Assembly (NCBI RefSeq): GCF_900105075.1
Contig: NZ_FNSK01000007.1
Coordinates: 1 to 39,778 of the forward strand
Length of the DNA: 39,778 bases
Reading direction: 5' to 3'
Origin: Rhodobacter sp. 24-YEA-8
Lineage (GTDB): Bacteria; Pseudomonadota; Alphaproteobacteria; Rhodobacterales; Rhodobacteraceae
Shown here: positions 1 to 39,778 of the stretch, piece after piece
Position numbering within the stretch: the first letter of the stretch is position 1
How the letters are laid out: each line of letters opens with the position of its first letter
Program-made: the position numbers and the translations under genes
Notes under the pieces: model-generated
Told to the model about the DNA's origin: nothing
Seen by the model: the letters and a program-made list of their open reading frames with translations, nothing else
Database searches by the model: none

Positions 1-274
1 GCGCGCCGGGCAGATGCCGCGCATCTACCGCCTGCTTGACGGCGAGGACCGGCTGGAGATCCGGTCCTATATCTGTGACATTACCCCGGCACAGGCGGAA
101 CAGGTCCGTATCGGCGAGGCTGAATGGACCAGGGCGCTCCGCGTCAACGAGACCTGCCACAACCCGCGCGGCGCGCTTTCCTTCACCCATTGGGTAAAAG
201 AGGGCCGCATCCTGCAAAGCATTCAGACCTTTGATCCGGGCTTTGGTCCGGTCGATATCCTCTTCCTGCCATGA
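1..274 (+). CDS. yjbF: YjbF/GfcB-family lipoprotein, C-terminal part (continues from the right edge of the window)
   Basis: The frame is open from the first base and ends at TGA 272-274. Read circularly it joins the frame that leaves the window at 39778: the last two bases GC plus base 1 (G) make an Ala codon, followed by R-A-G-Q and then the ATG at 14. The piece carries family-like text (YRLLDGEDRLEIRSYICDI, then a late HWVKEGRILQS segment). YjbF/GfcB proteins are about 200-220 residue periplasmic lipoproteins of exopolysaccharide operons, of unclear biochemical role. The ATG at 14 should not be taken as a start, because it lies mid-protein and has no upstream signal. The Wza-like gene follows after 45 bp, probably in the same transcript. 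Confidence 0.85.
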   Translation, partial: RAGQMPRIYRLLDGEDRLEIRSYICDITPAQAEQVRIGEAEWTRALRVNETCHNPRGALSFTHWVKEGRILQSIQTFDPGFGPVDILFLP

Positions 275-319
275 TCCAGCCCGTTATCCCTTCTGTGATC
301 CCCTTCTGTGAGGCCTCCG

Positions 320-1678
320 ATGCGTAACCCTCCTTTGCTTGCCACGCTCATGGCCGGGCTTGCGCTGTCGCTGGCGGGCTGCGGCATTGCCTATCAAAGC
401 ACCAGTATCCGCGAAGGTGTGGTGGACGGCACCAAGGTCAGGGTGATCGGCCTGACGCCCGAAACCACATTGGCCGCCAATCAGCAGGCCTATAGCCCGC
501 GGGCGCTGCCTGCAGCCTTCAGCGCGACGGCCGGCACCCATGGCACAATGGCGCGCGGCCTGCCTCAGCCCGCGAACCTCCCCGAACAACGCCAGGGCGT
601 GCCCGCGACCAGATTGCCGCCTGCTGTCGCGGCGACCCCCTATCAGGTGGGTGTCGGGGATGTGGTTTTGCTCGCGACCAAGGCGCCCGCCAATTCGGTG
701 GCCGAGCTTTCGGGCCTCCTGGCCGCGCAAAACAATCGCCAAGGCTATACCGTCCAGGATGATGGCGCGATCGCCATTCCCGATGTCGGCCGGGTCCGCA
801 TCGCGGGTATGACGCTGGAGGATGCCGAAGCGGCGGTGTTCCAGCGCCTTGTCGAGCGCCAGATGGATCCGAGCTTCAGCCTCGAAGTGGCCGAATTCAA
901 CGCCCGCAAAGTGCCGATCGGTGGCGCGGTGGCAAAGCCGGGCGTGGCACCGGTCACGCTGACGCCGCTGACGCTGGATACGGCGCTGGCAGCGGTGGGC
1001 GGCATCGCCGCGCCTGACCGGGAATCTGCAGTGATCCGCATCTACCGCGCCGGCTCGCTTTACGAGATCCCGGTCACCGAATTCCTGCGCAACCAGAGCT
1101 ACCAGAAAACTCGTCTCCTTGATGGCGATACGGTCTTTGTCGACAGCGATTATGATCTGACCCGCGCTGAGGCCTATTTTTCCGAACAGCTCGCTTTGCA
1201 GGGCGCGCGCTCTTCGGCCATCACCGCACTCAGCCAGGAAGTGGGTATCCGCCGCTCTGAGCTGGAAGAGCAGCGCGCGAATTTCAACACAAGGCTCGAG
1301 CTTGGGGCCGAGAAGCGGGACTATGTCTATCTGACCGGCGAGGTCGGCAAACAGGGTCGCTGGGCTCTGCCCTATGACCAGAGCGCAAGCCTTGCCGATG
1401 CCCTGTTCGATCAGGGCGGCATCATCGCCAAGACCGGCAATCCAAGACAGATCTATGTGCTGCGCGGCTCGGCGGATCCGCGTGAATTCGGCGCCCTGAC
1501 CGCCTGGCATCTTGATGCCGGTGCCGCAGCCGGCCTGATGCTGGCGACACGTTTCGAGATGCGCCCGAATGACGTGGTTTATATCGCGCAGCAGCCGGTC
1601 ACCAAATGGGACCGCGTCATCTCGCAGATCACGCCCAGCCTGATCACGGTTCCGCTGAACAATCTGACCGAAAACTGA
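320..1678 (+). CDS. wza: Wza/GfcE-like polysaccharide export outer-membrane lipoprotein
   Basis: A 452-residue periplasmic/outer-membrane polysaccharide export protein, predicted to form the secretion channel. It has a short hydrophobic signal ending in the lipobox LAGC (Cys at residue 21). A Poly_export-type domain (YQVGVGDVVLL, then DDGAIAIPDVGRVRIAGMTLEDAE) is followed by SLBB-like repeats (KVPIGGAVAKPGVAPVTL, then YVYLTGEVGKQGRWALP). The ATG at 320 is preferred over a GTG at 308 because GAGG (310-313) sits 6 nt upstream of it. It is somewhat longer than E. coli Wza (379 aa). It is the last gene of the wzc-yjbH-yjbF-wza run and is followed directly by a strong terminator. Confidence 0.88.
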   Translation: MRNPPLLATLMAGLALSLAGCGIAYQSTSIREGVVDGTKVRVIGLTPETTLAANQQAYSPRALPAAFSATAGTHGTMARGLPQPANLPEQRQGVPATRLPPAVAATPYQVGVGDVVLLATKAPANSVAELSGLLAAQNNRQGYTVQDDGAIAIPDVGRVRIAGMTLEDAEAAVFQRLVERQMDPSFSLEVAEFNARKVPIGGAVAKPGVAPVTLTPLTLDTALAAVGGIAAPDRESAVIRIYRAGSLYEIPVTEFLRNQSYQKTRLLDGDTVFVDSDYDLTRAEAYFSEQLALQGARSSAITALSQEVGIRRSELEEQRANFNTRLELGAEKRDYVYLTGEVGKQGRWALPYDQSASLADALFDQGGIIAKTGNPRQIYVLRGSADPREFGALTAWHLDAGAAAGLMLATRFEMRPNDVVYIAQQPVTKWDRVISQITPSLITVPLNNLTEN

Positions 1679-1835: not shown

Positions 1836-1976
1836 AAGAAGGGGCGTTGATAAATAATCGGGAACGATTAAAAGCTGTGCGCTGAGCCCAGATTGTGCGG
1901 GCTCTTTCCCTGTTCTGCGCTTTGGTAAGCAAGTTTTTTTTTGCTACATCGAAAAATAACTTGTTTAGGACCTCCC

Positions 1977-2654
1977 ATGGCCGACGGAGCCCTGTCGACA
2001 TCCTGTAAGACCTCCGCTGAACGGACCCCGATTCCATTAGCAGGCGCCACCAGGCATGGCTTTTACCGTTCTTACGGCAAACGCTTTCTGGATTTTTTTC
2101 TGGCCCTGTTCCTCATCCCTGTTGTAGTGCCGGTGCTGGTTGTGCTTGCGCTGCTTATCGGCAGATCCCCCTTCTACAGCCAGACCAGAATTGGCAAAGA
2201 CGGCCGGACCTTCCGCATGTGGAAGCTGCGCTCGATGGTGCGGGATGCCGATACGGCCCTTGCCGCCTGTCTCGCCCGGGATCCGAAGCTCCGGCGCGAA
2301 TGGGATCTCAATCAGAAGCTGGATCAGGACCCCCGCATCACCCGGATCGGCCGCCTGATCCGCAAGACTTCGTTTGATGAATTGCCACAGCTCTGGAATG
2401 TGCTGCGTGGCAATATGAGCATTGTCGGCCCGCGCCCGATGATGCTGGATCAGAAAGACCTCTATCCGGGCCAGGCCTATTACCGGTTGCGTCCCGGCCT
2501 GACCGGCCCCTGGCAGGTCTCGGACCGCAATGCTGTCTCTTTCCGGGCAAGGGCGCAATTCGACGAAGATTACGAGCATCACCTGAGTTTTCGGGGTGAC
2601 TGCGGCCTTATCCTGAAAACCATCAGGGTCGTGCTGCGCGCGACCGGGAAATAA
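1977..2654 (+). CDS. ExoY/WbaP-type undecaprenyl-phosphate sugar phosphotransferase
   Basis: A 225-residue monotopic phosphoglycosyl transferase (Bac_transf family) that would start the repeat unit by moving a sugar-1-phosphate from a nucleotide sugar to undecaprenyl phosphate at the inner membrane. There is one hydrophobic segment near residues 38-62 ([20 protein letters not shown]). The catalytic core follows with the family motifs [22 protein letters not shown] and MSIVGPRP, then [11 protein letters not shown]. The length fits the small ExoY form, which lacks the extra N-terminal membrane domain of WbaP. The ATG at 1977 is preferred over a longer TTG frame at 1941 because AGGA (1967-1970) lies 6 nt upstream. 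The acceptor sugar cannot be read from the sequence. Confidence 0.9.
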
Positions 2655-2972: not shown

Positions 2973-4271
2973 ATGAAGCTGCTGATACTGGGTATAAACT
3001 TCGCTCCCGAGATGATTTCGACGGGGATCTATACGACGGGCCTTGCCGAGGTCATGGCCGAGGCTGGCGATCAGGTCAGCGTGGTCACGGCCCAGCCCTA
3101 TTATCCGGACTGGAAAGTGTTTCCCGGCCATTCGCGCTTTTTCTGGAGCCGTGGGGAATTGCCCTCGGGGGTCCGCTATATCCGCTGCCCGCATTATGTG
3201 CCGGCAAAGCCCAGTGGCGCGAAGCGCATCATGCATCATGCTAGCTTCGCCCTGACCGCTTTCCCGGTTCTGGCCTGGAAAACCCTGATCGGGCGCCCCG
3301 ATATGGTTCTGGTAATCGCGCCGGCGCTGCTGCCCGCGCCCTTTGCCTGGGCGCTGGCGAGGCTTTCGGGGGCGAAATGCTGGCTGCATGTCCAGGATTT
3401 CGAGGTCGAGGCCGCCTTTGCCACCGGCCTTCTGAAACCTACAAGCTTTGCCGGCCGCCTTGCGCAGAAATTCGACCGCTGGATCCATCGGCGCTTTGAC
3501 AAGGTCAGCACGATCTCGGGCCCGATGCTGCGCAAATTGTCGGAAAAAGGTCTGCCGCCCGGCCGCATTTTCGAGCTGCGTAACTGGGCCAGGCTTGATG
3601 ATGTCACGCCCCTGACAAGCCCTTCGCCCTACCGCGAAGAATTTGGTATCATCGAAGAGCATGTGCTGCTTTATTCCGGCAATATCGCCAATAAACAGGG
3701 TCTTGAGATCCTTCCCGATGTGGCGCGCCGGCTTGCCCATCGCAAGGATCTGCGCTTTGTGATCTGCGGCCAGGGGCCTTTCCTTGACGAGTTGAAAGCG
3801 CTCTCCGAAGGGCTCGACAATATCTCCTTCTTCCCGCTGCAACCGCTGGACCGGCTGGGGGATCTGCTTGGCCTCGCCAGCCTTCATCTCCTGCCCCAGA
3901 TCGCCGGGGTGTCGGAATCGGTGCTGCCGTCGAAGCTGACGAATATGCTGGCCTCGGGCCGCCCAGTTCTGGCCACCGCCGAGCCGGGCACCGCGCTGGC
4001 CGATGAGATCGCAGAATGCGGCAGTGTCACGCCGCCCGGCGATGCGGCAGCACTGGCAGAGGCGATTTCCGCGCTGCTCGACAACCCCCGGCAGCGCGAG
4101 GCCTGCGGGCTCGCCGCCCGGGCCCGCGCTCTGGAACATTGGGACAATAAGCGCATTCTCGAGCGCTTCCGCATTGCCGCCCATGACCTGACCGGCCAGC
4201 CCCGACCCATTGCACCTCCTGTCGCCAAAGCGACGGAAGCCCCTCTGATCAACAGAACGAGACAGACATGA
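2973..4271 (+). CDS. wcaI: WcaI-type GT4 glycosyltransferase
   Basis: A 432-residue cytoplasmic glycosyltransferase of the GT-B/GT4 fold, closest in motif content to the colanic-acid enzyme WcaI. N-terminal acceptor-side motifs: [21 protein letters not shown] and [11 protein letters not shown]. The middle has [16 protein letters not shown] and [15 protein letters not shown]. The C-terminal donor domain has [12 protein letters not shown] and [21 protein letters not shown]. The family transfers a sugar (fucose is reported for WcaI) onto a lipid-linked intermediate, which fits the GDP-fucose genes immediately downstream. Its stop overlaps the gmd start as ATGA. Confidence 0.85.
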
Positions 4272-5386
4272 AAAAGGCCCTTATCACCGGCATCACAGGC
4301 CAGGACGGCTCTTACCTCGCCGAGTTCCTGCTGGAAAAGGGCTATGAGGTGCATGGGATCAAGCGCCGTGCCTCGTCTTTCAACACGCAGCGTGTCGATC
4401 ACATCTACCAGGACCCGCATGTCTCGAACGCGCATTTCCGGCTGCATTACGGCGATCTGACCGACAGTTCCAACCTGACCCGCATCATGCAGGAAGTGCA
4501 GCCCGACGAGGTCTATAATCTCGGTGCGCAATCCCATGTGGCCGTGTCTTTCGAGGCCCCCGAATATACCGCCGATGTCGACGGGATCGGCACTTTGCGT
4601 CTTCTGGAAGCGATCCGCTTCCTCGGGCTCGAGCAGAAAACCCGTTTCTACCAGGCCTCGACCTCCGAGCTTTATGGCCTGGTGCAAGAGACCCCGCAGC
4701 GCGAGACCACACCCTTCTGGCCCCGGTCTCCTTACGCTGTGGCCAAGCTCTACGCCTATTGGATCACGGTGAATTACCGCGAGGCTTACGGCATCTATGC
4801 CTGCAACGGCATCCTCTTCAACCATGAGAGCCCGCGCCGCGGCGAGACTTTTGTCACCCGCAAGATCACCCGCGGCCTCGCGAATATCGCCCAGGGGCTG
4901 GAAAGCTGCCTCTTCATGGGCAATATCGACAGCTTGCGCGACTGGGGTCATGCAAAAGACTATGTCCGCATGCAGTGGATGATGCTGCAACAGGACAGCC
5001 CGGAAGATTTCGTCATCGCCACCGGCGTGCAATATTCGGTGCGCCAGTTCATCACCTGGTCGGCGCAGGAACTGGGGATCGAACTTGCCTTCACCGGCGA
5101 GGGCGTGAACGAAATCGCCACCGTGGTCTCGGTCTCGGGCGATAATGCGCCTGCGGTCAAACCGGGCGACGTCGTCATGCGCATCGACCCGCGCTACTTC
5201 CGCCCGGCCGAGGTGGAAACCCTGCTCGGCGATCCGGCAAAGGCAAAAGAAAAACTCGGCTGGGTGCCCGAGATCACCGTCCAGGAAATGTGCTCCGAGA
5301 TGGTGTCCGAAGACCTGAAAGTCGCAAAACGCCACGCCTTCCTGAAGGCCCACGGCCATGACGTGCCGGTGAGTGTGGAGGCGTAG
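4268..5386 (+). CDS. gmd: GDP-mannose 4,6-dehydratase
   Basis: 372 residues, the normal length for Gmd. Converts GDP-D-mannose to GDP-4-keto-6-deoxy-D-mannose. The NAD(P)-binding motif GITGQDGSY is at residues 8-16. The catalytic set is visible: T132 and E134 in STSELYG, and Y156/K160 in [20 protein letters not shown] and the DWGHAKDYV segment are typical. The start overlaps wcaI by 4 bp. It uses GDP-mannose from manC (32058-33524), and its product feeds fcl (5658-6623). Base composition is GC-rich like the rest of the plasmid and unlike fcl, so the two consecutive pathway genes look to have different origins. Confidence 0.97.
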
Positions 5387-5419
5387 TTACCAGAGAACAG
5401 CCTTCATCACATCTGGTAA
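5387..5419. repeat. Inverted repeat just after gmd
   Basis: TTACCAGA (5387-5394) and TCTGGTAA (5412-5419) are perfect 8-bp inverted arms around a 17-nt loop. No T-tract follows, so it is not a clear terminator. It lies exactly where base composition changes from GC-rich to AT-rich. Confidence 0.45.
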
Positions 5420-5440
5420 GTTCTAGCGTTAAGAGTCTTA

Positions 5441-5564
5441 GCTACTTGGGCGATGCAACACTTATAGAAAAATAACTGGATGTCAGCCTGAGATTTCTGT
5501 TCGAGATGGTGTCGCTGCCTTCGTGCGTTGGTACAAGGAATACAACTGGTATTCTAAGGCCTAG
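5441..5564 (+). pseudogene. C-terminal remnant of a nucleotide-sugar 4-epimerase
   Basis: The DNA between gmd and fcl encodes, with frameshifts, the tail of an epimerase like the intact one at 30310-31332. ATWA is read from 5441. A second frame then gives D-A-T-L-I-E-K, and a third gives I-T-G-C-Q-P-E-I-S-V-R-D-G-V-A-A-F-V-R-W-Y, ending KEYNWYSKA and TAG at 5562-5564. The intact copy ends ATWADADLLKRLTGY, PETGFRDGVAQFVAWFRDYY, so the alignment is colinear. Only about 40 codons remain and at least two indels are needed. It is AT-rich like the downstream cassette, which suggests it came with that cassette. Confidence 0.75.
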
Positions 5565-5657
5565 CGAAGGCTCTAACTTCAAACAAGATACGATACGAGA
5601 ATTGGCTCCCCTTCGAGAAGATCGGGGGCCTATATTCTAAATAATCGGGGGCATATC

Positions 5658-6623
5658 ATGAAGTACTTTATTGCAGGGCATAAAGGTATGGTTGGCAGCG
5701 CAATCATGCGAAAGTTGATAGAACGAAAAGTGCACGGCGATCCCTTGGAAATAGTTACTAAAACGCGCGCCGAGTTGGATCTAACAGATCAAAAATCAGT
5801 GCGCGATTTTATGCATGTCGAAAAGCCTGATGTAGTGATTGTTGCAGCCGCAAAAGTCGGTGGCATTCACGCAAACGACACTTATCCTGCTGAATTTATC
5901 TACGATAATTTAATTATTGAGTGTAATCTAATACATCAGGCATTCAAATCCGGGGTGGCTAAGCTTCTTCAACTTGGATCCTCATGCATATACCCAAAAT
6001 TCACTGATCAACCGATCGGTGAAAGTGCACTACTTACAGGCAAACTAGAGCCAACAAACGAACCATATGCGATTGCTAAAATAGCAGGGATTAAACTTTG
6101 CGAAAGTTATAACAGGCAATATGGGGTCGATTATAGATCAGTGATGCCGACTAATCTTTATGGGCCAGGAGATAACTATCACCCTGATAACTCGCACGTC
6201 GTTCCCGGGCTTCTCAAAAGATTTCATGATGCAAAGCAGCAGGGCGTGGATGAAGTGATGATCTGGGGGTCTGGAAAGCCTCGTCGTGAATTTCTTCATG
6301 TAGATGATATGGCAGAAGCGTCTCTTTTCATTTTGGGTCTGGAAAAATCTGTTTATGATCGCAACACACAGCCAATGCTTAGCCACATTAATGTTGGAAC
6401 GGGGATTGATCATTCAATTCTGGAGCTTTCAAAAATAATTGCAGATGTAGTTGGCTACTGTGGCGGTATTTCCTTTGACACCACTAAGCCCGATGGAGCG
6501 ATGAGGAAATTAATGAGTGTTGATAGAATTAACAATATGGGATGGAAATATAAAATAGACTTAAAGAGCGGAATTAGGGACACCTACGAATGGTATATAA
6601 ATCAGGGTCAAGTCAGGTCTTGA
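5658..6623 (+). CDS. fcl: GDP-L-fucose synthase
   Basis: 321 residues, the expected length. Performs the 3,5-epimerisation and 4-reduction of GDP-4-keto-6-deoxymannose to GDP-L-fucose. The NADP-binding motif GHKGMVG is at residues 7-13. Catalytic residues are visible in LGSSCIYP (S108) and Y137/K141 of EPYAIAK, matching S107/Y136/K140 of the E. coli enzyme. [15 protein letters not shown] and [12 protein letters not shown] are family hallmarks. AATCGGGGGC precedes the ATG. It is AT-rich and marks the start of the low-GC cassette, yet completes the pathway begun by gmd. Confidence 0.96.
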
Positions 6624-6674
6624 TTTACTGATGCATATCATGCACCGACAAGTGACGACACAAGGGAGTGAACA

Positions 6675-7808
6675 ATGTATCACGACAAGATCATGAAAAA
6701 AGTTATTGTTGTTGGCCCCTTCCCCCCGCCGCATAATGGTGCTGCAAAAAATACCCTAATATGGGCCGAAGGAATCAAAAAAAATGACGTGCCAGTCATT
6801 TGCATTGAAACCAATGTTAAGACCGGATCTGCGCATAAAAGGTCCCTTCGCTATCACTTCGATAGAGCATACCTCACCTTTATAAATGTAGCCTCTATTC
6901 TAAAGTCAGCAGACTCGTCGACCGTTGTCTATATTGTTCCGGATGGGGGGTTTGGGCTATTTTATAATATCGCATATGCCCTGTCATTTAAGTGCAGAGG
7001 CGTAAAGTCAGTATGGATGCATCATCGAAATTTTCACAATATTTCAAATGGAGGCTGGCTTTTAAAGATATTTAATAGAATTATTGGAACCTCTGGCAGT
7101 CATATATTCCTTACTGTAGGAATGGAGAGCGCTTTCAAACGCTATATTTGCCCGAAGATTAGATCTGTTGTGATCGGAAATGCTGCCACCTGCGATGTGC
7201 GAATAAATGAAGCAGGCAGCGGTCGCCCTGAAAGAGATTGTATTCAAGTTGGATTCCTTAGCAATTTGAATTATGATAAAGGATTCGACATTGTAGTTGA
7301 GGCATTCAAAAGTGTTTCTAAGAGCTCGCCGGAAGTAACTTTTGCGGTGGGAGGCGAGGCGAATGACAGTGACGCATCTGCCTGGCTAGTGGATCTAAGA
7401 AATAGTGTTGGTGAGAAAGTAAATATACTCGGGCACATCTCAGGAGATAAAAAACAGGAATTCTATGAAAATTCTGATATCTTGGTTTTTCCCACCACAT
7501 ACAAGCTAGAAGCACAGCCAAATGTTCTGATGGAGGCATTAGCGGCAGGCTGCTCAGTAATCGCGACAGATCATGCTTGTATCGCGGAAACTATATCTGA
7601 TTCACATCACGATCTGATTAAGTTACAAGCCAGAAAAGATATGGTGATTGAACTTGTTGCGAAGCTTAATGAAATGATCGCGCAGTTGTCCGACCCTTTA
7701 TCCCGGCGTGCCGCTATAAATGCGAATACGGAGGCATTCCGGATAATGAAGGAAAGGGACACCCGTGCTTACAATGATCTAATCGCTGCAGAGTTTACAG
7801 CATTATGA
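6675..7808 (+). CDS. GT4-family glycosyltransferase
   Basis: 377 residues with a GT-B organisation. N-terminal start: KKVIVVGPFPPPHNGAAKNT. C-terminal donor-binding half: IQVGFLSNLNYDKGFDIVVEAF, then FPTTYKLEAQPNVLMEALAAGCSVIATD with the E-x7-E-like pattern of GT4. GGGAG at 6664-6668 is 6 nt from the ATG at 6675, so this start is preferred over the internal ATG at 6693. It would add a sugar to the lipid-linked repeat unit in the cytoplasm; donor and acceptor are not readable. The stop overlaps the wzx start (ATGA). AT-rich. Confidence 0.82.
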   Translation: MYHDKIMKKVIVVGPFPPPHNGAAKNTLIWAEGIKKNDVPVICIETNVKTGSAHKRSLRYHFDRAYLTFINVASILKSADSSTVVYIVPDGGFGLFYNIAYALSFKCRGVKSVWMHHRNFHNISNGGWLLKIFNRIIGTSGSHIFLTVGMESAFKRYICPKIRSVVIGNAATCDVRINEAGSGRPERDCIQVGFLSNLNYDKGFDIVVEAFKSVSKSSPEVTFAVGGEANDSDASAWLVDLRNSVGEKVNILGHISGDKKQEFYENSDILVFPTTYKLEAQPNVLMEALAAGCSVIATDHACIAETISDSHHDLIKLQARKDMVIELVAKLNEMIAQLSDPLSRRAAINANTEAFRIMKERDTRAYNDLIAAEFTAL

Positions 7809-9082
7809 TCGCAAAGAAAAAAATTGTAAACCTTATTGGACTTGGAATTGGATATCTCCTTGGCCAAGGCAGCTTTTTAATTGCATCATTTTATTTGCTC
7901 TCCAATGAGAAATATGAAACGGCATCTGCTGTCGGATTTGGAATGTCAGTGGTCACCCTATCCTTATTGATCATTGATATGGGTGGACAGATCTATCTTT
8001 CTCGCCAAGTTGCGATAGATAGAAACTTGTGCCGAGACACTGGGATTGGCGCATCCGACGAAGTGTTGAAGTCAATTTTTTCCATTATATTAATACGGCT
8101 TATATCTTGGGCCTCCCTGCTATTATGTGTTGGAATTTTTGGAAGAAACTTGGGTTTTGCAGAGGATCCTCTTTCTGAGAGGTTCATATTAATTTCTATC
8201 GCATGCTTGTTTTTCTGGATATTTAACCAAACTGGCGTTCTTGATGGCCAACGGCTCCAAGGATGGTCCGGTCTATCTCTATCCATCCCTTGGGTCTTTG
8301 TGAGTGCAGCTACTATTGCCCTGTCGAATTACGATGTCTCGCCATCATTCTTCGGAATATTCCTTGGTCTTTCGTTTGGCGCGGGATCATTGATCGCGGT
8401 TATCCTGCAAATTGTTGTAAGTCGAATTTTTTATAATTTGCGCATTGCACGTATATGCGTGCGGGATATATTGATGGCTTTGAGAATTGGGGGCGGGGCA
8501 TTTCTGTCGCAACTTCCAGGGCAGCTAAATGGCAGGGTGCAAATATACTTCGCAATGATGCTGTTCTCTCCGGAGTTGGCCGCGGCATTTATCCTTTCTC
8601 GAAATGTACTTAATGCGTCTAATAATCTAGTTGGAATGGCCAGGAGAATAGAATTTCCAGATCTAGTGGCTCTGTTAGGAACTGGATGCGTCAGTATTTC
8701 TGTTATATTCCGACGTCAAAAGATGTCATTCTTATTTAGCATTCTGATCTGCATTTTTTGCTTAATGTGCGGCATTGCTTCGTACACTGACATGCTGCCA
8801 TCGTATCTTAAAGGAAGTTCGGATGCTATTTTAATTAATGCGATATTCGTGCCTGTACTTGTATCCTCTACTATTTCTGGCGCGTTGGTTCAGGCCATGC
8901 TTGCATCTGGAAAATCTTTCATTGTTGCGCTCTCAAGTGTCATCTCATTCTTTCTGTCAACGTTGATCGTTTGGCTTCTGATTGATGATATTATGGTGTA
9001 TGCAATGGTTTTGGCGTCAATTGTTTCCAATGTTGTTATTTCTGTGTTAATGATGTCCTCAATTCAGAAGCGAAGGATGTGA
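7805..9082 (+). CDS. wzx: Wzx-like polysaccharide flippase
   Basis: 425 residues, almost entirely hydrophobic, with roughly 11-12 predicted membrane segments (for example LIGLGIGYLLGQGSFLIASFY and SLLLCVGIFGRNLGFAED, ending VYAMVLASIVSNVVISVLMM). This is the layout of MATE/MVF-type O-antigen flippases. It would move the undecaprenyl-linked repeat unit to the periplasmic face. Sequence conservation in this family is low, so the call rests on topology and on its place between a glycosyltransferase and a Wzy-like gene. It overlaps both neighbours by 4 bp. Confidence 0.72.
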   Translation: MIAKKKIVNLIGLGIGYLLGQGSFLIASFYLLSNEKYETASAVGFGMSVVTLSLLIIDMGGQIYLSRQVAIDRNLCRDTGIGASDEVLKSIFSIILIRLISWASLLLCVGIFGRNLGFAEDPLSERFILISIACLFFWIFNQTGVLDGQRLQGWSGLSLSIPWVFVSAATIALSNYDVSPSFFGIFLGLSFGAGSLIAVILQIVVSRIFYNLRIARICVRDILMALRIGGGAFLSQLPGQLNGRVQIYFAMMLFSPELAAAFILSRNVLNASNNLVGMARRIEFPDLVALLGTGCVSISVIFRRQKMSFLFSILICIFCLMCGIASYTDMLPSYLKGSSDAILINAIFVPVLVSSTISGALVQAMLASGKSFIVALSSVISFFLSTLIVWLLIDDIMVYAMVLASIVSNVVISVLMMSSIQKRRM

Positions 9083-11546: not shown

Positions 11547-11584
11547 GGTAATCCTCCCCCGTTTTAACGGGGCGCAGAAGTAGA
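11547..11584. repeat. Terminal inverted repeat of the IS3 shell (orfB side)
   Basis: 38 bp beginning GGTAATCCTCCCC and ending GAAGTAGA; it pairs with 14809-14846. Confidence 0.8.
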
Positions 11585-11586
11585 CT

Positions 11587-11877
11587 TCAGGCAGCCATCT
11601 TCAGTTTCTGGGCGGGTTTGATGCCGCCGATGCCCATGTTGGGGCGCTCATTGTTGTAAGTCCATAGCCAGTCGGTTGCGATCTGTTGCGCCTCCTCGAT
11701 AGTTTCAAAGATGTAGAGGTCCAGCCATTCATGCCGGACCGTTCTGTTGTAACGCTCGACGTAGGCGTTCTGCTGGGGCTTCCCGGGCTGGATGTGGTTC
11801 AGGGCGATACCCTGCTTCTCAGCCCAGATCATCAGCGTAGAGCTGATGTATTCCGGGCCATAGCACGTCGTGAACAA
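11587..11877 (-). pseudogene. IS3-family transposase OrfB, C-terminal fragment
   Basis: The last 96 codons of an rve-type DDE transposase: IQPGKPQQNAYVERYNRTVRHEWL carries the final catalytic Glu region, and the protein ends YNNERPNMGIGGIKPAQKLKMAA as in the IS407 group. The usual CDNGPEY motif holding the second catalytic Asp reads C-Y-G-P-E-Y here, so the Asp is absent. The frame is cut at its 5' side by the IS110-family element. Not functional. Confidence 0.85.
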
Positions 11878-11890
11878 CGGTCCGCTTGGA

Positions 11891-13289: not shown

Positions 13290-13400
13290 ACAATGTTCGG
13301 GCCTTCCGCTTGGGACGTAAGCGCTGTCAGCACCCCACCTTCCAGCCTCAGTCCTGATCGCCTCATTGGAGGTGCATGATTATCAGGACGGAGGTTCTCC

Positions 13401-29902: not shown

Positions 29903-30309
29903 TGCCCTGCCATGGCACTGGATAAGGATCGTCGCGTGATGCCACAGCTGCCGAGAAAAGCAAAGGCAACGGCGGGGCAAAGCCGGGGCTGGTTTGCATT
30001 CAGGCCAGAAAATCCGGCACCGGGGAAAAGCCCGGAACGCGGTTTTGTGCCGCGCCCCTGTGGGTTGAAACTCGTTCAGCGCTGGAGACGAAACCGGAAT
30101 GCTGGCCTTGCGGATGCGGCAGGGAGCATGTTCTTCCTGGAAATCCGGCAATAGGCCCTATCGGCCCGGCAGCCTGCCACCGCTCCGGTATCTTACAGCG
30201 ACTATTTCCCACGGGCTTCAATAGGCAGCAGACAGCTCTCCCAGTTTCCTCTATGTCGCATGCATCAGGCGAAGGCCCGACATTTTTCAGCATGATCCAA
30301 GAGATACAA
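29903..30309. other. 407-bp divergent intergenic region
   Basis: It lies between cysD (minus) and the epimerase (plus) and must hold both promoters. I see no clear -35/-10 pair, palindrome or small gene. Confidence 0.5.
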
Positions 30310-32057: not shown

Positions 32058-33524
32058 ATGACGCTGCAGACCATTGTGCCGGTTCTTCTTTGCGGGGGAT
32101 CGGGCACTCGCCTCTGGCCGCTTTCGCGCAAGAGTTATCCGAAACAATTCGCGCTTGAGATCGGGGGGCGGACGCTGTTCCAGGCCTCGGCCGAGCGGCT
32201 TTCGGGCGAGGGTCACAGCGGGACCGGGGCGGGGTTCCGCTTCGCCGCGCCGGTGACGGTGACCGGCTCGGATTTCCGTTTCATCGTGACCGAGCAGCTG
32301 GCGGCGATCGGCATTGATCCGGGGCCGATCCTGATCGAGCCCGCGCCGCGCAATACCGCGCCTGCGATCCTCGCGGCAGCGCTTTATCTGCAGGAACGTG
32401 ACCCCGATTCCATTATGCTGGTGGCGCCGTCAGATCATGCGATCCCCGATGAGCAGGCCTTCCGCGCGACGGTCGCGCGTGGTCTTTCTGCGCTGGAGTC
32501 GGGGCGGCTGGTGACCTTCGGCATCACCCCTGACCGGCCCGAGACGGGATATGGCTATCTCGAACTGGCGGGCGCGGCGGGCGCGGATCCGGTCGATCTG
32601 AAACGCTTTGTCGAAAAGCCCGATGCCACCCGCGCGGCCGAGATGCTGGCCGCTGGTGATTTCCTCTGGAATGCCGGGATCTTCCTGTTCCGGGCCGCTG
32701 ATCTGATCGCGGCCTGCGAGGCGCATGTGCCGGCGATGGTGGCCCAGGTGCGTGAGGCCCTTGGCCAGGGCCGCACCGATCTTGGCTTCCTGCGGCTGGA
32801 GGAAACCGTCTGGAACGGGATCGAGGATGTCTCGATCGATTACGCGGTGATGGAAAAGGCCGACAATCTCTCGGTGGTGCCTTTCTCGGATGGCTGGTCG
32901 GATCTGGGCGGCTGGGATGCGGTCTGGCTGGAAGGCGGGCCGGATGCAAATGGCGTGGTCACCTCGGATCATGCGACCGCGATTGACTGCGAAAACAGCC
33001 TGTTGCGGTCAGAATCCGGGGCGGTGGAGCTGGTGGGGATCGGGCTGAAGAATGTGATCGCGGTGGCGATGCAGGATGCGGTTCTGGTGGCCGATGCCTC
33101 CCGCGCGCAGGATGTGAAAAAGGCGGTGGCGGCCCTGAAGGCGAAAGGCGCCCGCCAGGCCGAGACCCTGCCGCGCGACTATCGGCCCTGGGGGTGGTAT
33201 GAGAGCCTGGTGATCGGCCAGCGCTTCCAGGTCAAGCGCATCCATGTCCATCCGGGCGCGGCGCTGAGCCTGCAATCGCATCACCACCGCTCGGAGCACT
33301 GGATCGTGGTCGAGGGCACGGCGCGCGTCACCGTCGATGATCAGGTGACGCTCGTGACCGAGAACCAGTCGGTCTATATCCCGCTGGGCGCCGTTCACCG
33401 GATGGAGAATCCGGGCAAATTGCCGATGGTGCTGATCGAGGTGCAGACCGGCAGCTATTTCGGCGAGGATGACATCATCCGCTATGAGGATGTCTATGCG
33501 AGAGGGCAGGGTCCCAAAGGCTGA
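32058..33524 (+). CDS. manC: Mannose-1-phosphate guanylyltransferase / mannose-6-phosphate isomerase
   Basis: 488 residues, two domains. The N-terminal nucleotidyltransferase has the pyrophosphorylase signature LLCGGSGTRLWPLSRKSYPKQF (about residues 11-31), IEPAPRNTAPAI and FVEKPD. The C-terminal cupin isomerase domain has QSHHHRSEHWIVVEGTARV near residue 406 and YIPLGAVHRMENPG. It makes GDP-mannose from mannose-1-phosphate and can convert fructose-6-phosphate to mannose-6-phosphate. A phosphomannomutase linking the two steps is not on the plasmid and must be chromosomal. It feeds gmd and fcl. Confidence 0.96.
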   Translation: MTLQTIVPVLLCGGSGTRLWPLSRKSYPKQFALEIGGRTLFQASAERLSGEGHSGTGAGFRFAAPVTVTGSDFRFIVTEQLAAIGIDPGPILIEPAPRNTAPAILAAALYLQERDPDSIMLVAPSDHAIPDEQAFRATVARGLSALESGRLVTFGITPDRPETGYGYLELAGAAGADPVDLKRFVEKPDATRAAEMLAAGDFLWNAGIFLFRAADLIAACEAHVPAMVAQVREALGQGRTDLGFLRLEETVWNGIEDVSIDYAVMEKADNLSVVPFSDGWSDLGGWDAVWLEGGPDANGVVTSDHATAIDCENSLLRSESGAVELVGIGLKNVIAVAMQDAVLVADASRAQDVKKAVAALKAKGARQAETLPRDYRPWGWYESLVIGQRFQVKRIHVHPGAALSLQSHHHRSEHWIVVEGTARVTVDDQVTLVTENQSVYIPLGAVHRMENPGKLPMVLIEVQTGSYFGEDDIIRYEDVYARGQGPKG

Positions 33525-34968
33525 TCCGTGCTCACTGCGCGCCGCTGCTCCTAACCTATTGGGCATCCGGAACCGGTTCCGCCGATAAATATACCCGAAA
33601 ACGCGCTTAAGAGATGGAACCATCGCAGGCTTACAGCGCCATGAAAGCGCCCAAGAAAACCAGTAGAGATTGAGCCCACCATGGCTGGTGAATTGCCCGC
33701 ATGGCTGATCAGCACGAAAAGGATGACCATCCTGCGCAGGACATCGGCCCCTTCCGAGCGAGCCCGGGGAGGGCGCCAGAGAGACCCTGTGAAAACGGAT
33801 CTTGCGGAAGACAAGGGCATGGGGAGCTCCCGGACCGCTGGGGAGTTCCGGGCAGTATGGCTAATGGATGCCGCCATTGCTGATCGTAACATAGCCAGGC
33901 GACCATTCGGCAAGCGCGAAAAAATCGGTCAGGCTGCGGTAGGAGATCACCACCTTGCCCGAAGCCCGGTCTCGCCGATCCGCTGCCAGCCTGCGGGGCT
34001 GGCTTGCCAGCGGTAACGCCCGGAATTAGCGACTGTGCCGCCAGCGATGGGATCGGCGTGGCTTCCGGTGTCGCCAGAATGGTCGTGACCTCGGCTTTTG
34101 AAGCCTGGACCCAGAGCCTTTTAGGCGCGGCCGGCAGGCTGTTGCTCAGAAGATCACCCAGCACATACTGCGCCGCAGCGCCGATCTGGATCGTACCCAG
34201 TGATGTCTAGCGCGGCACGAATCTCCGGGCGCGGGTCCGTCTCGTCCCAGCGGGGTGACCGTTTAGTGGGTGCCATGCAGCCCCTCGCTGTTGCGTCAGA
34301 GACGGAAACCTTCGGGCAGAGCTCGGCCTCATCAATCGCTACGGTCAGCGCCGATGGCAGCAGGGTATCCTCGCCCTCGCGATCCTAGGCCGAGAGGGTG
34401 AAGTTCGGTTTCACCTCGGCAAAACCTCGCCCGTTGGCAAGGGGATGCGACCGGTGATCAGGCTGCTGGTTAATGGCATTCGTGGGCTACAGTGTCGGTT
34501 GCAATAGAGCGCGCGCATAAGGCGCCCAAGCCGGATACTGCTCGGGCGGGGTAGAGCTCTCCTTGCCCGAGCGTACGTAGCCCACATCCTTGGGCTGGCT
34601 TGGCCATTTCAGGGTCTGTCTCCCGCAAGCGTTACAGAAGGGCCGCGCAGAGGAGGCCACGAGAGAAGGCCATGGCCGGAAGCCGCGAAACTGGAAGGAA
34701 AGTCGCAGAAAACGATAGTGGAAATCACCGCAGAGCCGCCGGAAAGCGCGGGATTTAAAGGGCTGATGACATGCAGGGGTTGTTTCAACAGGGGAGCTCG
34801 TTTAGGGTCCGCCTGCTTGGTCCCGCTGCCTCGGTTGACGTTGTTTATGTGGTAAGTCCTGTTTGTGCGCGGTCCTGATCTGCACGGCTTAGCCGGCTTT
34901 TAAATTACATTTTCTTGCGAGAATGGCCCCACGTGAACATTTCTTCTTCGCCGACAGCTGCGGGTGCC
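33525..34968. other. 1.4-kb region without an intact gene
   Basis: Short frames on both strands are interrupted and lack ribosome sites. The left half holds the minus-strand remnant listed separately. Between about 34630 and 34855 one plus frame (KLEGKSQKTIVEITAEPP) faintly recalls transposase text but is too short to call. The last 150 bp must contain the promoter of the wzc operon; TTGACG occurs near 34836 without a convincing -10. Confidence 0.55.
33861..34430 (-). pseudogene. Decayed unidentified gene
   Basis: On the minus strand a protein-like reading continues through several frames. One segment gives GRGFAEVKPNFTLSA then a stop. Next comes DREGEDTLLPSALTVAIDEAEL. A further frame gives LGTIQIGAAAQYVLGDLL and RLWVQASKAEVTTILATPE. 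A last shift gives RYRWQASPAGWQRIGETGL and SGKVVISYRSLTDFFALAEW, ending SNGGIH with TAG at 33863-33861. The text looks like a real former coding region with at least three frameshifts. I do not recognise the family. Confidence 0.4.
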
Positions 34969-37071
34969 ATGTCTAACTCTGACGATACGATCGATCTCCT
35001 AGGCTTGCTGCGGACCCTCTGGCGCGGCAAGCTGGTGGTGTTGGGAGCAGTCCTTCTGTGCATGATCCTGGGCGGTCTTTATGCTTGGCGTGTGGCTGTG
35101 CCCCTTTATTCAGCAAATGCCGTGGTGATGCTGGACGCGCGCGAAAATTCCGGCATGGGGCTGAGTGCGATCCTCGGCGGGCTTTCGACCGACAGTTCGA
35201 CCGTGAATACCGAAGTGCAGGTTCTGCGCGGGCGCACTCTGATCGGGCGGGTGGTGGATGAGCTGGATCTGACCGCGGATCCTGAGTTCAACGGCGCCTT
35301 GCAGCCCGAAGGGCTGACGACGACGCTGCGTCGCAGCATCGGCCTCGGCTCTGATCCGGTTGTCTTGCCGCCTGAAGAACAGGCCGCGCAAGAACGTGAC
35401 GCCACGACCTCTGCGCTTCTGGAGCAGGTGGCGATTTCCAATGTGCCGAACAGTCTGGTGTTCCAGATTGCCGTCACCACGGAATCCGCTGCGAAATCCG
35501 CAAGGATCGCCGATACGGTTGCGCGTCTTTATATCGATGATCAGATGCGGGTCCGTTTCGAGGCGACCGAGACCGCGATCACATGGCTGTCGGGCCAGGT
35601 GGTGGAGCTGAAGCGGAATATCGACGAGGCCGAGGCGGCGGTCCGCGAATTCCGCGCTGCCACCAATGTTGTCGATCTCGAGACGCTTGGCGCGCTGGAC
35701 CGGCAGCTCAAGGAAACCCGGCGCCGGATCGAATTGCAGACGCAACAGGCCGCAGATCTGCGGCTGCGGCTCGAGCGTATGGCAAGTGCTGCTGATCCGA
35801 TGGCGAAGGCGCTGGCCAGCGGGGATGAAGCGCTGATCCGGCTGGCCAGCCAGGCGCAAGCGGGTGAGGCGGAGGCCAGTCAGTTTGAGGCGGGCCTTGC
35901 CCGGGTGACGGCGCTGGCCCGCCAGGACCTGGCCCGGGTCGAGGCTCAGGACGGCTCGCTGCGCGAGGCGGAGCAGAAGCTTGCCGCTGATTTCGAGACC
36001 CAGTCACGTGACCTGGTGACGCTTGAGCAACTGGTGCGCGAGGCCGAAGCGAACCGGCTGCTTTATGATCAGTTCCAGACCCAGCTGAAAGAAACCCTTG
36101 CCCAGCAGGGGATTCAGCGCCCCGACAGCCGGATCCTGTCACAGGCGGTAATGCCGGAAAGGCCTTCGGCACCGCGCAAAAGCCTGATCCTTGCGATGAC
36201 GCTGGTGCTTGGCACTATGATCGGCACTGGGATCGTGCTGATGCGCGAAATGATGGTCAACCGGGTCCGCACGCCGCAAGAGCTCGAGGCGCTGACCGGC
36301 CGCCCGGTCTTTGCCCAGGTGCCGAAGATTGATGAGCGCAGCCGCAAGGGCGTGCTTGGATATCTGGCGCGCAACCCTGCTTCGGCCGCCGCCGAGGCGA
36401 TCCGCAATCTCAGGGTCTCTATCCTGCTGTCTTCGGCAGAAAAGGCGCCGCAGGTCATCATGATCACCTCTTCGGTGCCGGGCGAGGGCAAGACCACCAC
36501 GACGCTGGCGCTGGCGCAGAACATGACGATGCTGGGCCGCAAGGTGCTGGTGATCGAGGGCGATGTGCGCCTCTCGCCGCTCAGCGAATATTTCGACGGG
36601 ATCGGCAAGGGGAAACCCGGTGTGGCCGAGGTGATTGAGGGCAAGGTCCCACTCTCGGAGGCGGTGCAGTCGATTGCCGGCGTCGGGGATCTGCTGTCTG
36701 AATCGAAAATCACGATCAATGCGGCGGATCTCTTTTCCTCCGAGCGCTTCGCCGGTCTGATCGCCCAGGCGCGCGGGCTCTATGATCTGATCCTGATCGA
36801 TACGCCGCCGGTCCTTGTCGTACCTGATGCCAGGATCATCGCACAACAGGCCGATGCGGTGATTTTCGCCGTGCATTGGGACCGCACTTCGACCGAGCAG
36901 GTCAGGGCTGCAATGCACCAGCTTGAGCTGGTCAATGTGACGCCGGCGGGCTTTGTGCTGACGCTGGTCGACCCGCAGGGGATGCGCCGCTACGGCTATG
37001 GCGGCAGCTATGGTGCCTATGCCAGCTACGGCAAGAATTATTATACGAGTGAAGGCAAACAGATCTCATAG
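34969..37071 (+). CDS. wzc: Wzc-like polysaccharide co-polymerase with BY-kinase domain
   Basis: 700 residues from the ATG at 34969 (TTG 34915 or GTG 34933 are in-frame alternatives; no ribosome site is decisive). The Wzz-like N-terminus has a membrane segment (LVVLGAVLLCMILGGLYAW) and PLYSANAVVMLDAR. A long periplasmic coiled coil (about residues 200-400) follows, then a second membrane segment after RPSAPRKSLILAMTLVLG. The cytoplasmic tyrosine kinase has Walker A SSVPGEGKTTTT near residues 500-511, VLVIEGDVR and LILIDTPPVLV. It ends in a Tyr-rich tail (YGYGGSYGAYASYGKNYY) suited to autophosphorylation. It would set chain length and couple Wzy to Wza. No Wzb-type phosphatase gene is seen. 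Confidence 0.9.
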   Translation: MSNSDDTIDLLGLLRTLWRGKLVVLGAVLLCMILGGLYAWRVAVPLYSANAVVMLDARENSGMGLSAILGGLSTDSSTVNTEVQVLRGRTLIGRVVDELDLTADPEFNGALQPEGLTTTLRRSIGLGSDPVVLPPEEQAAQERDATTSALLEQVAISNVPNSLVFQIAVTTESAAKSARIADTVARLYIDDQMRVRFEATETAITWLSGQVVELKRNIDEAEAAVREFRAATNVVDLETLGALDRQLKETRRRIELQTQQAADLRLRLERMASAADPMAKALASGDEALIRLASQAQAGEAEASQFEAGLARVTALARQDLARVEAQDGSLREAEQKLAADFETQSRDLVTLEQLVREAEANRLLYDQFQTQLKETLAQQGIQRPDSRILSQAVMPERPSAPRKSLILAMTLVLGTMIGTGIVLMREMMVNRVRTPQELEALTGRPVFAQVPKIDERSRKGVLGYLARNPASAAAEAIRNLRVSILLSSAEKAPQVIMITSSVPGEGKTTTTLALAQNMTMLGRKVLVIEGDVRLSPLSEYFDGIGKGKPGVAEVIEGKVPLSEAVQSIAGVGDLLSESKITINAADLFSSERFAGLIAQARGLYDLILIDTPPVLVVPDARIIAQQADAVIFAVHWDRTSTEQVRAAMHQLELVNVTPAGFVLTLVDPQGMRRYGYGGSYGAYASYGKNYYTSEGKQIS

Positions 37072-37194
37072 CGCAAGAGCCTGACCACCCGGGGCCTGCA
37101 ATCGGGCCATGGGGCTTTGGCGGATTTTGAGAACAGAAATACTGCGACAGCCTGGCCTTTCCGGGTGTGGCGCGGATGGTTGGAAACGGAAAAG

Positions 37195-39399
37195 ATGCGA
37201 CGCCTGCCAGCGGATCCCTTTTCGGACGAGAGAAACGCGAGAGCCGCACCGAAAAAGGGGGCGGTGCGTCTTGCCTCTTTCGCCTTATTCACTGCCACCC
37301 TCGCCGCCCCTGTGGCCGCGCAGGATGTTGATGACCGGCGGATGCCGGGGCTTTCCTCGTATGGGGTGCCGGGCCATATCGACATGCCTTCGGCCTGGGC
37401 ACTGCCCGATGGCAGTTTTGCTTTTACTCTGAACCAGTTTGGCAGGGATATCCGCCGCGCCACCATGGCCTTCCAGATCACCCCGCGTGTGACCGGGGTC
37501 TTCCGCTATTCCTATCTCGATGGCTATCTGATGAGCGGCGACTCGCTCTATGACCGCAGCTTCGACCTGCGCTATCAGATCCTGACGGAAAATCCCGATG
37601 GCTGGCGCCCGGCGCTTTCGGTGGGGTTGCAGGATTTCGGCGGCACCGGCATTTTTTCGGCCGAATATCTGGTGGCCTCGAAAACCCTCAGCGAGACGGT
37701 CAGCGCCTCGGCCGGGATCGGCTGGGGCCGGTTCGGCTCTTATGGCAGTTTCTCGAACCCGCTTTCGATCCTCTCTGACCGTTTTAATGATCGCGGCAGC
37801 TTCACCGGCATCGCAGATACCGGGCGTGTGGGGTTCGATCGTTTTTTCCGCGGCGATGCGGCGGTGTTTTTCGCGCTGGACTGGCAGGCAACGCCCCGGC
37901 TGCAACTGAGCCTTGAGTATTCCTCGGATGCGATGGATCAGGAAGTTGCCCGCATGGGCTACCGCCACCGCACGCCGGTCAATCTCGGGATGGAATACCG
38001 CTTCGACAATGGCGGTATCTTCGGGCTTTCGGTGATGCATGGCTCAGAGGCGGCGCTGAGCTATACGCTGGTGCTGGATCCGACCCGCCCCTCCGCGCCT
38101 TCGGGACACGAAAGCGCACCTCCCGCCATCTCGCGGGGCAGCGCCGCCACCGTGGCCAGCTGGGGCGATATCTCCGGCAGCCCGCAGCGCGAGGCCCTGG
38201 CAGAGGCGCTTTCGGATCAGGGGATCCGCCTTGACGGGCTGAGCTTCGGGGGCGGCACCGCGACCGTTGCGATCCGCAATCAGCAATGGCCCAATACAGC
38301 CCAGGCCTGGGGGCGGACCGCCCGCGTCCTCAGCGCGGTATTGCCGGCTGAGATCACCCGGTTCCGCATCCGCAGCATGGATCGTGGCCTGGCCGTGAGG
38401 GATGTCACCCTCACACGCCAGGATCTGGAAGAGCTGGAATTCGCGCCGGATGGGGCCTGGCAGATCTATGCACGTGCCGATATCCGCGATGCTTATACCC
38501 CCGGTCCGGGCGCCCCGGGGCAGATTGGGGGACCCGACCCAAGGCTGGATCTGGAAAGCCAGGCCTCGCTGCGGTTCTTGCCCTATACCGAGACCGCGAT
38601 GTTTGACCCTGACAATCCGCTGCGGATGGATTTCGGCGCCGAGCTCTTGGGCGAATGGTCGCCGGGGAACGGGCTCTATTTCTCGGGCGCGATCCGGCAA
38701 AAGCTGGTGGGCAATATCGACACCTCGACCCGGGTCTCGGATTCGATCCAGCAGCATGTGCGCTCGGATGCGGCGCTTTATGCCAAGACCACCGGCCCGA
38801 AACTGGCCTTCGCCACCGCCGAATGGTTCAGCCGCCCCGGCCCTGACCTCTATGGCCGCGTCAGCGCCGGCATGTTCGAGAAGATGTTCGGCGGGATCTC
38901 GGGCGAACTCCTCTGGGCGCCGGTCGAGCGGCACTACGCGCTTGGGATTGAACTGAACTATGTGAAACAGCGCGATTATGACGGCGGGCTCGGCTTTTTC
39001 GATTATGATGTGCTGACCGGCCATGCCTCGCTTTATTACGATTTCGGCGGCGGTTATCTTGCTCAGATTGATGCGGGCCGCTATCTCGCGGGCGATCTCG
39101 GTTCGACCCTGACCCTGACGCGGCGCTTCGGGAACGGGTTCGAAGTGGGCGCCTTCTTCACCCTCACGGATATCAGCTTTGATGATTTCGGCGAGGGCTC
39201 GTTTGACAAGGGGATCACCATCAGCCTGCCTTTGTCCTGGGTCACGGGCAAGCCGACGCAGCAAAGGCTGGGCCAGGTGATCCGCCCGATCCAGCGCGAT
39301 GGCGGCGCAAGGCTCAGTGTCCGCAACCGGCTTTACGGGCTGACCCGGGATGAGACGGATGCGGCCCGGGGCATCGGCTGGGGGCGATTCTGGCGATGA
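37195..39399 (+). CDS. yjbH: YjbH/GfcD-family outer-membrane exopolysaccharide protein
   Basis: 734 residues. A signal peptide (hydrophobic ASFALFTATLAAPVAAQ) is followed by the YjbH opening (PGLSSYGVPGHIDMPSAWALPDGSFAFT) and many amphipathic beta-strand-like segments (FRYSYLDGY, LAFATAEWFSRPGPDLYGRVSAGMFEKMFGGISGELLWAP), as expected of a large beta-barrel. The family is encoded in yjbEFGH/gfc-type EPS operons and has been proposed to act in polymer export. The ATG at 37195 is chosen because it places the signal peptide near the N-terminus; the frame is open to 37117. It ends at TGA 39397-39399, overlapping the possible yjbF ATG at 39396. Confidence 0.88.
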   Translation: MRRLPADPFSDERNARAAPKKGAVRLASFALFTATLAAPVAAQDVDDRRMPGLSSYGVPGHIDMPSAWALPDGSFAFTLNQFGRDIRRATMAFQITPRVTGVFRYSYLDGYLMSGDSLYDRSFDLRYQILTENPDGWRPALSVGLQDFGGTGIFSAEYLVASKTLSETVSASAGIGWGRFGSYGSFSNPLSILSDRFNDRGSFTGIADTGRVGFDRFFRGDAAVFFALDWQATPRLQLSLEYSSDAMDQEVARMGYRHRTPVNLGMEYRFDNGGIFGLSVMHGSEAALSYTLVLDPTRPSAPSGHESAPPAISRGSAATVASWGDISGSPQREALAEALSDQGIRLDGLSFGGGTATVAIRNQQWPNTAQAWGRTARVLSAVLPAEITRFRIRSMDRGLAVRDVTLTRQDLEELEFAPDGAWQIYARADIRDAYTPGPGAPGQIGGPDPRLDLESQASLRFLPYTETAMFDPDNPLRMDFGAELLGEWSPGNGLYFSGAIRQKLVGNIDTSTRVSDSIQQHVRSDAALYAKTTGPKLAFATAEWFSRPGPDLYGRVSAGMFEKMFGGISGELLWAPVERHYALGIELNYVKQRDYDGGLGFFDYDVLTGHASLYYDFGGGYLAQIDAGRYLAGDLGSTLTLTRRFGNGFEVGAFFTLTDISFDDFGEGSFDKGITISLPLSWVTGKPTQQRLGQVIRPIQRDGGARLSVRNRLYGLTRDETDAARGIGWGRFWR

Positions 39400-39407
39400 G
39401 GCAGCGC

Positions 39408-39778
39408 ATGACGGCGATGACCCCACTGAAGATGCCGGCAACCCCGATGCTGGCAATCCTGCTGCTGGCAGGATTGGTCCTGAGCAGCTGCTCGGGCCGG
39501 ACCAGCGACGCGTTGCTGGCCCGCTATGCCGGCAGTGCCCCCGGCGAGGCGGTCACCGCCGCGCCCGCAGGCGCTGCCCGCCTGATCGTGCGGATCCCGA
39601 AAACGGGGCAATCGGCGCTTTTGCATGAAGCGGGCGCGCGTGATGGCGTCCGGCGCTGGCAGGCTTCGGATAATGTGCAGATCTATACGCGAGATGGCAT
39701 GATCATCGGCACCCGGGGTCTCGGCAATGATCTGATGAGCGCCGATACCGGCGCCGCGGCAGCGCTGATCCGCGAGGC
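39408..39778 (+). CDS. yjbF: YjbF/GfcB-family lipoprotein, N-terminal part (continues at position 1)
   Basis: A lipoprotein signal (MLAILLLAGLVLSSC, lipobox LSSC) is followed by RLIVRIPKTGQSALL and the family motif DGMIIGTRGLGNDLMSAD. It reaches the right edge of the window in frame and continues at bases 1-274. The ATG at 39408 has TGAGG 6 nt upstream; the ATG at 39396, which overlaps the yjbH stop, is the alternative (218 rather than 214 residues in total). YjbG/GfcC is missing from the expected set. Confidence 0.88.
   Translation, partial: MTAMTPLKMPATPMLAILLLAGLVLSSCSGRTSDALLARYAGSAPGEAVTAAPAGAARLIVRIPKTGQSALLHEAGARDGVRRWQASDNVQIYTRDGMIIGTRGLGNDLMSADTGAAAALIRE

Follow-up and report, generated by a model that had tools for sequence, protein, structure and literature searches.

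Introduction

Plasmids related to the one analysed here have been described in the genus Phaeobacter: pGal_F69 of Phaeobacter gallaeciensis is given in Table 6 of PMC4148982 as a circular RepA-I replicon of 68,752 bases, and the sections of that source consulted describe it as carrying many cell-envelope genes and as the presumed cause of attachment. Biofilm plasmids with a rhamnose operon have also been described in the literature, as relayed in the part of PMC9426580 consulted. Here we analyse a stretch of 39,778 bases (the window), which is the entire contig C7 (NZ_FNSK01000007.1) of Rhodobacter sp. 24-YEA-8, and find that it is almost certainly the whole sequence of one circular RepA plasmid, opened arbitrarily inside the polysaccharide export gene yjbF. 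The genome comprises seven contigs (5,011,740 bases) and is scored 100% complete; we infer that the host of the plasmid is a Pseudogemmobacter-like bacterium. Two relatives were compared throughout: contig C11 of a same-genus genome (G012:C11; 39,581 bases) and contig NZ_UXAW01000138.1 of Pseudogemmobacter humi (G005:C118; 40,260 bases). The Pfam scan took in 40 open reading frames (ORFs) of the window, and statements that a family is absent from it refer to these ORFs.

The ends of the window join within yjbF

The frame that enters at 39396 has read only two bases of codon 128 when the window ends at 39778; the third is base 1, which makes the codon GCG (Ala), and from there the frame runs on to a stop at 274, giving 657 nt and a product of 218 amino acids (aa). 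From this split frame the initial annotation had proposed a complete circular plasmid opened inside yjbF, a whole lipoprotein across the junction and a restored wzc-yjbH-yjbF-wza order, with a profile search of the joined protein as the check. All of this holds. The joined protein matches Pfam PF11102 (YjbF) at 73.4 bits in a single stretch (profile positions 27-189), with no break at the junction, and the halves score 40.8 bits (26-90) and 25.8 bits (105-189), the second just under the cut-off of 25.9. The gene order obtained by joining the ends is unbroken in both relatives.

At the DNA level, the strongest test comes from G012:C11, whose bases 26089-31225 match window 34679-39778 and whose bases 31224-36606 match window 1-5379; because these coordinates abut, the two ends of the window adjoin in that contig. 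The joined 1200 bases over the seam give one match to it at 93.6%, and the 100 bases centred on the seam contain 93 identities and 0 gaps. The P. humi contig also crosses the seam (an 877-base match at 77.8%); within 50 bases of it, the alignment has 102 columns, of which 84 are identical and 4 contain gaps. A linear fragment of a larger replicon that carries yjbF halves at its two ends by coincidence has a negligible probability, and we rejected this reading: both halves score in YjbF and fit together in profile order and frame without overlap, the joined protein gives the profile match, and the sequence is unbroken across the seam in the two relatives. No exact overlap between the window's ends was found at 10-399 bases or at 8-2999 bases.

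A hidden Markov model (HMM) of 20 YjbF homologues gave 161.6 bits for the join and 78.1 and 65.7 bits for the halves. It was built from distinct loci with a tblastn match to the joined YjbF; L023 and L033, which gave no such match, are not in it, L043 is a duplicate of L044, and several rows are almost identical to one another. All 32 altered joins (8 deletions and 24 random insertions) scored below the true join. However, the nearest of them, with two residues removed, still reached 157.9 bits; as the closest ones lose only about 4-6 bits, the HMM alone cannot fix the seam to the base, and the case for an exact seam is carried by the DNA comparison with the relatives.

An ORF runs in frame over the end-start seam in five of the other six contigs of the genome; a Pfam stretch spans the seam in C1 (FtsK/SpoIIIE), C2 (Fe-ADH) and C5 (amine oxidase), and the best reported Pfam stretch does not reach it in C3 and C6. 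Exact end overlaps of 8-2,999 bases are absent from all seven contigs. The assembly is read as rings opened at arbitrary places.

Some observations weigh against this picture. Five of the seven mismatches to G012 around the seam cluster just past it (positions 5, 6, 9, 10 and 14, that is, 5-14 bases beyond), and in C4 a short-chain dehydrogenase frame ends at the seam and, by eye, resumes in another frame, so that the seams of this assembly are not all base-perfect. A real circle with a few bases missing or wrong at the seam is nevertheless very unlikely: there is no gap to G012 within 50 bases, the frame is kept and the residues fit the family; RAGQ, read just past the seam, is also present in homologue L032, which speaks against an error. 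In addition, the sequence fits a single circle and a dimer alike and does not tell monomer from multimer, as the seam itself is the same for a circle and for a tandem repeat; three plasmid copies in one Roseovarius SP300 contig (L100-L102) illustrate this ambiguity. It is very unlikely, however, that the unit exists as a tandem repeat, a multimer or an array integrated in another replicon, with no free 39.8-kb circle. No hybrid contig was seen: the two pieces searched, bases 1-300 and 34915-39778, have no full-identity copy outside C7, although two diverged copies turned up on the chromosome, at 67% and 73%. An initiator, origin-like repeats and partition genes are also present on the plasmid itself. 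We retain the circular plasmid; since the window is then the whole replicon, any gene that it lacks is also absent from the plasmid.

Repeats were also seen in contigs of related plasmids. The end of G012:C11 repeats its start as a terminal direct repeat of 7,234-7,235 bases (99.96%, three one-base indels), so that this contig very probably represents a circle of about 32,346 bases. According to the portion of PMC6966772 consulted, some long-read assemblers tend to leave start-end overlaps of thousands of bases when they assemble circular replicons. The repeat was probably left untrimmed, in which case the stated size would exceed the true plasmid by about 7.2 kb. The Roseovarius SP300 metagenome contig (PBIL01000001.1; 138,513 bases) holds its near-identical RepA-plasmid copies about 55.2 kb apart, at 99.93-99.96% over shared stretches, and probably represents about 2.5 turns of one circle.

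Replication and partition

The initial annotation listed RepA, ParA, ParB, iterons and a relaxase as present once each. For RepA the count stands, with one RPA-family initiator match in the genome, on C7; its strand had to be corrected to minus (Table 1). A longer plus-strand ORF (14742-16355, 537 aa) was rejected as RepA, as it has no Pfam family and its tblastn match in NZ_CP069373.1 lies opposite in strand to the annotated repA. The conceptual product of this antisense ORF matches 407 plasmid records by tblastn and exemplifies a strand-call trap in GC-rich DNA. ParA and ParB are indeed found once each among the 40 ORFs scanned. The iterons are present at a corrected count of about four copies: three tandem 22-nt units and a fourth copy 69 bases upstream, between repA and parA. 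The same interval holds TTATCCACA, which we take to be a DnaA-box-like word. By eye, the repA-parA interval reads alike in G012 and G005. RepA would start replication within this iteron/DnaA-box interval (15903-16390). The cumulative GC skew did not point clearly to an origin, and an Rfam search gave no match at gathering score. The gene repA diverges from parAB, as it does in loci L045, L046 and L166. In a RepA tree, which has no row for the pGal_F69 protein and in which some deep forks are open, the window's RepA falls within a large group that includes Phaeobacter inhibens L166 and is joined by four long-branched rows of other RepA types.

The 18-bp palindrome TGTTTCGCGCGCGAAACA occurs exactly twice on C7, once between parA and parB and once within parB, and 0 times on C1-C6. 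The chromosome carries TGTTTCACGTGAAACA, two bases shorter, twice, flanking the chromosomal parA. The core TTTCGC(GC or AT)GCGAAA has 146 occurrences in 80 RepA loci (1.37 Mb, including near-duplicates such as L100-L102 and L125/L126/L133, so that the counts are not independent) and 0 in 20 mononucleotide shuffles. Both ParA and ParB were found in 69 loci, 63 of which have the core somewhere; 54 have it around parB (from 400 bases beyond the ParB match to 50 bases into the ParA match) and 15 do not. ParA and ParB, acting on the two parS-like palindromes, would segregate the plasmid. Speaking against a parS role, L046 and L043 are without a site, and the single site of L166 (3610) adjoins repA (3739-4764), not parB. 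The motif letters were not found in the papers of the literature searched, a search that did not extend to other notations or further papers. The motif offers a testable case of plasmid-chromosome orthogonality.

Polysaccharide export and the glycan cassette

The families of Wza, of a Wzc of the polysaccharide co-polymerase (PCP) type and of the priming transferase are all present in the window. Nucleotide-sugar enzymes, glycosyltransferases and a flippase-fold protein are predicted to make an exopolysaccharide of the Wzx/Wzy type, and the Wzc-type co-polymerase, Wza and a YjbF-YjbH outer-membrane pair to export the polymer. In E. coli, the binding partners of GfcB are GfcC and GfcD, an outer-membrane barrel (PMC8592465, part consulted); the consulted part of PMC9603273 likens YjbH to GfcD and gives it two predicted barrels. 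By analogy with GfcB/GfcD, the seam gene yjbF may encode an export accessory.

We infer that the cargo is a Wzx/Wzy-type exopolysaccharide locus in which Wzx and Wzy are candidates only. The Wzx-like protein has no Pfam family and shows a MOP fold in a modest model (predicted local distance difference test, pLDDT, 60; predicted template modelling score, pTM, 0.60), whose structural matches are MATE transporters and MurJ first, with WzxE from rank 15 at template modelling (TM) scores of 0.63-0.68. The Wzy-like protein has 10 hydrophobic stretches and no family at the curated cut-off, and its model (pLDDT 39) was too poor to search. Each of these proteins has only two relatives at an E value of 1e-3 among the best approximately 8,000 candidates of 5.8 billion proteins.

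The export block (wzc, yjbH, yjbF, wza, the priming transferase, a glycosyltransferase and gmd) is conserved, with 90-98% protein identity to G012 (YjbF 88%). The cassette that follows gmd has a GC content of 43.1%, against 61.5% for the rest of the window, and no DNA match to G012 or G005. Over the whole gmd-repA stretch (5388-14870), the window shares only the epimerase with G012 (50%) and G005 (49%) (BLASTP, 1e-5). Three genes are common to the cassettes of G012 and G005 (epimerase 87%, glycosyltransferase 76% and family-2 glycosyltransferase 68%), which also have two weak matches (26% and 29%); the other genes compared differ. The gmd-repA slot is a mosaic that is most changed in the window, with the replication and export blocks kept. 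Together with its sister plasmids, the window presents a fixed export and replication frame with an exchangeable glycan cassette.

It is possible, although we lean against it, that RepA-I plasmids form a swappable sugar-coat platform, with fixed replication, partition and export genes and with gmd-repA glycan genes exchanged piecewise or whole, and that an 18-bp centromere consisting of TGTTTCACGTGAAACA plus two central bases separates plasmid from chromosome segregation. This proposal is weakened because G012 and G005 share the three cassette genes and because the only site of Phaeobacter L166 does not adjoin parB. The cassette slot and the parS-like site are of more interest than circularity, which is itself ordinary.

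Mobilisation and other genes

The single relaxase reported initially is correct for C7 and not for the genome as a whole, which has five PF03432 matches, one of them on C7. VirB4 (PF03135) has no match in the genome. Judging from the gene families, MobC and the relaxase likely make the plasmid mobilisable, and would let a conjugative helper move it.

Several mobile-element traces accompany these genes. The DUF772/DDE transposase is presumably IS5/IS1182-like, and, by eye, 23420-23600 reads as the 3' remnant of an IS3-type transposase. At the end of the IS66 remnant, 41 bases (14806-14846) recur inverted at 97.6% past cysNC in G012:C11 (21692-21732), which may mark an old IS66 insertion in that contig.

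For cysNC and cysD the minus strand was preferred; plus-strand ORFs over 26928-30154 were rejected, as they have no Pfam family. No sulfotransferase to use 3'-phosphoadenosine 5'-phosphosulfate (PAPS) was seen in the Pfam scans of the window. An ATP-sulfurylase (PF01747) is encoded on the chromosome of the window's genome as well. In G012, a genome 98% complete, the sole CysD match lies on the plasmid contig (G012:C11:18666-19772) and PF01747 was not found, so that this plasmid may carry the only sulfate-activating enzyme of that genome. Upstream of wzc, the scanned ORFs of 33525-34914 (1.4 kb) match no family, and 34075-34497 is 72.6% similar in G005; the interval may represent a degraded gene or the export operon's promoter region.

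Table 1 Features of the 39,778-base window, in order of position (IS, insertion sequence; APS, adenosine 5'-phosphosulfate)
Feature	Position	Strand	Remarks
yjbF/gfcB 3' part, to stop	1..274	+	joined product 218 aa
wza-like outer-membrane polysaccharide exporter	308..1678	+	Poly_export, SLBB; Wza_C below cut-off
Priming glycosyltransferase	1941..2654	+	Bac_transf
Glycosyltransferase	2973..4271	+	
gmd, GDP-mannose 4,6-dehydratase	4268..5386	+	last gene of conserved export/sugar block
Low-GC glycan cassette	5388..11459	+	
Epimerase (cassette)	5658..6623	+	
Glycosyltransferase (cassette)	6675..7808	+	
Wzx-like MOP-fold protein (cassette)	7805..9082	+	
Pyruvyl transferase (cassette)	9079..10131	+	
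Wzy-like membrane protein (cassette)	10128..11459	+	
IS110-family element	11547..13315	+	transposase pieces 11686-12429 and 12426-13289
IS66 remnant	13316..14851	+	two accessory ORFs; tnpC frame stops at 14851, only N-terminal domains matched
repA, RPA-family replication initiator, 343 aa	14871..15902	-	PF10134, 326.9 bits (cut-off 27)
Iteron array, candidate oriV	16063..16197	.	copies at 16063, 16132, 16154 and 16176; TTATCCACA in the same interval
parA	16391..17857	+	
parS-like palindrome TGTTTCGCGCGCGAAACA, copy 1	17864..17881	.	between parA and parB
parB	17902..19011	+	
parS-like palindrome TGTTTCGCGCGCGAAACA, copy 2	18828..18845	.	in 3' part of parB frame
Metallophosphoesterase-like protein	19072..19695	+	
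UDP-glucose/GDP-mannose dehydrogenase (ugd)	19933..21099	+	
DUF772/DDE transposase	21742..22905	+	
mobC-like mobilisation accessory protein	23867..24460	+	
Relaxase	24457..26733	+	PF03432, 42.0 bits (cut-off 24.6)
cysNC, sulfate adenylyltransferase GTPase fused to APS kinase	27078..28994	-	
cysD, sulfate adenylyltransferase small subunit	28994..30151	-	Pfam PAPS_reduct; annotated cysD in relatives
Nucleotide-sugar epimerase	30253..31332	+	
manC/manA-type GDP-mannose pyrophosphorylase-isomerase	32058..33524	+	
wzc-like polysaccharide co-polymerase, kinase-type domain	34915..37071	+	
yjbH, outer-membrane protein	37117..39399	+	642 bits, profile 3-657 of 658
yjbF/gfcB 5' part	39396..39778	+	127 codons + 2 bases; goes on at base 1

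Comparison with known plasmids

The initiator family, the divergent repA-parAB arrangement and a RepA 73.3% identical to that of NC_023142.1, which was taken to be pGal_F69, identify the window as an RPA/RepA-I-type plasmid. In Phaeobacter inhibens NZ_CP081219.1 the RepA match is 74% and repA is also divergent from parAB; that plasmid carries yjbH-yjbF, gmd, GDP-L-fucose synthase and manC-type genes too. Compared with pGal_F69 and NZ_CP081219.1, the window is smaller, adds mobC-relaxase and has no rhamnose (rfb) family among the ORFs scanned. The window has both cysNC and cysD; the feature listing for bases 1-50,000 of NZ_CP081219.1 does not include cysNC-cysD.

The window is closely similar to G012:C11 (RepA 99%, ParA 97%, Wza 98%, Gmd 97% and ManC 96%), which has the same export block and cysD/cysNC, but no match to the transposase-mob-relaxase stretch of the window (21.1-27.1 kb) or to the region of its second epimerase gene. 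The P. humi contig shares RepA (90%), ParA (91%) and the wzc-yjbH-yjbF-wza order, but a search of 40,000 of its 40,260 bases gave no match to the window's cysD/cysNC, manC, ugd or relaxase. The plasmid NZ_CP067228.1 of Paracoccus sp. MC1862 (53,553 bases) resembles the window in having polysaccharide genes with yjbH-yjbF, and its relaxase (45.5%) is the top-ranked match in the plasmid collection, with MobC at 53%. However, its RepA is only 46% identical, its partition genes are arranged differently and rhamnose genes are annotated on it.

The original work on rhamnose-operon biofilm plasmids is reportedly that of Michael et al. 2016. The window is not filed with these plasmids, because none of its scanned ORFs matches an rmlC-type (dTDP-sugar isomerase) or other rhamnose-operon family. 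It would work like an exopolysaccharide plasmid of the RepA-I replicon type, and is a further example of this known kind.
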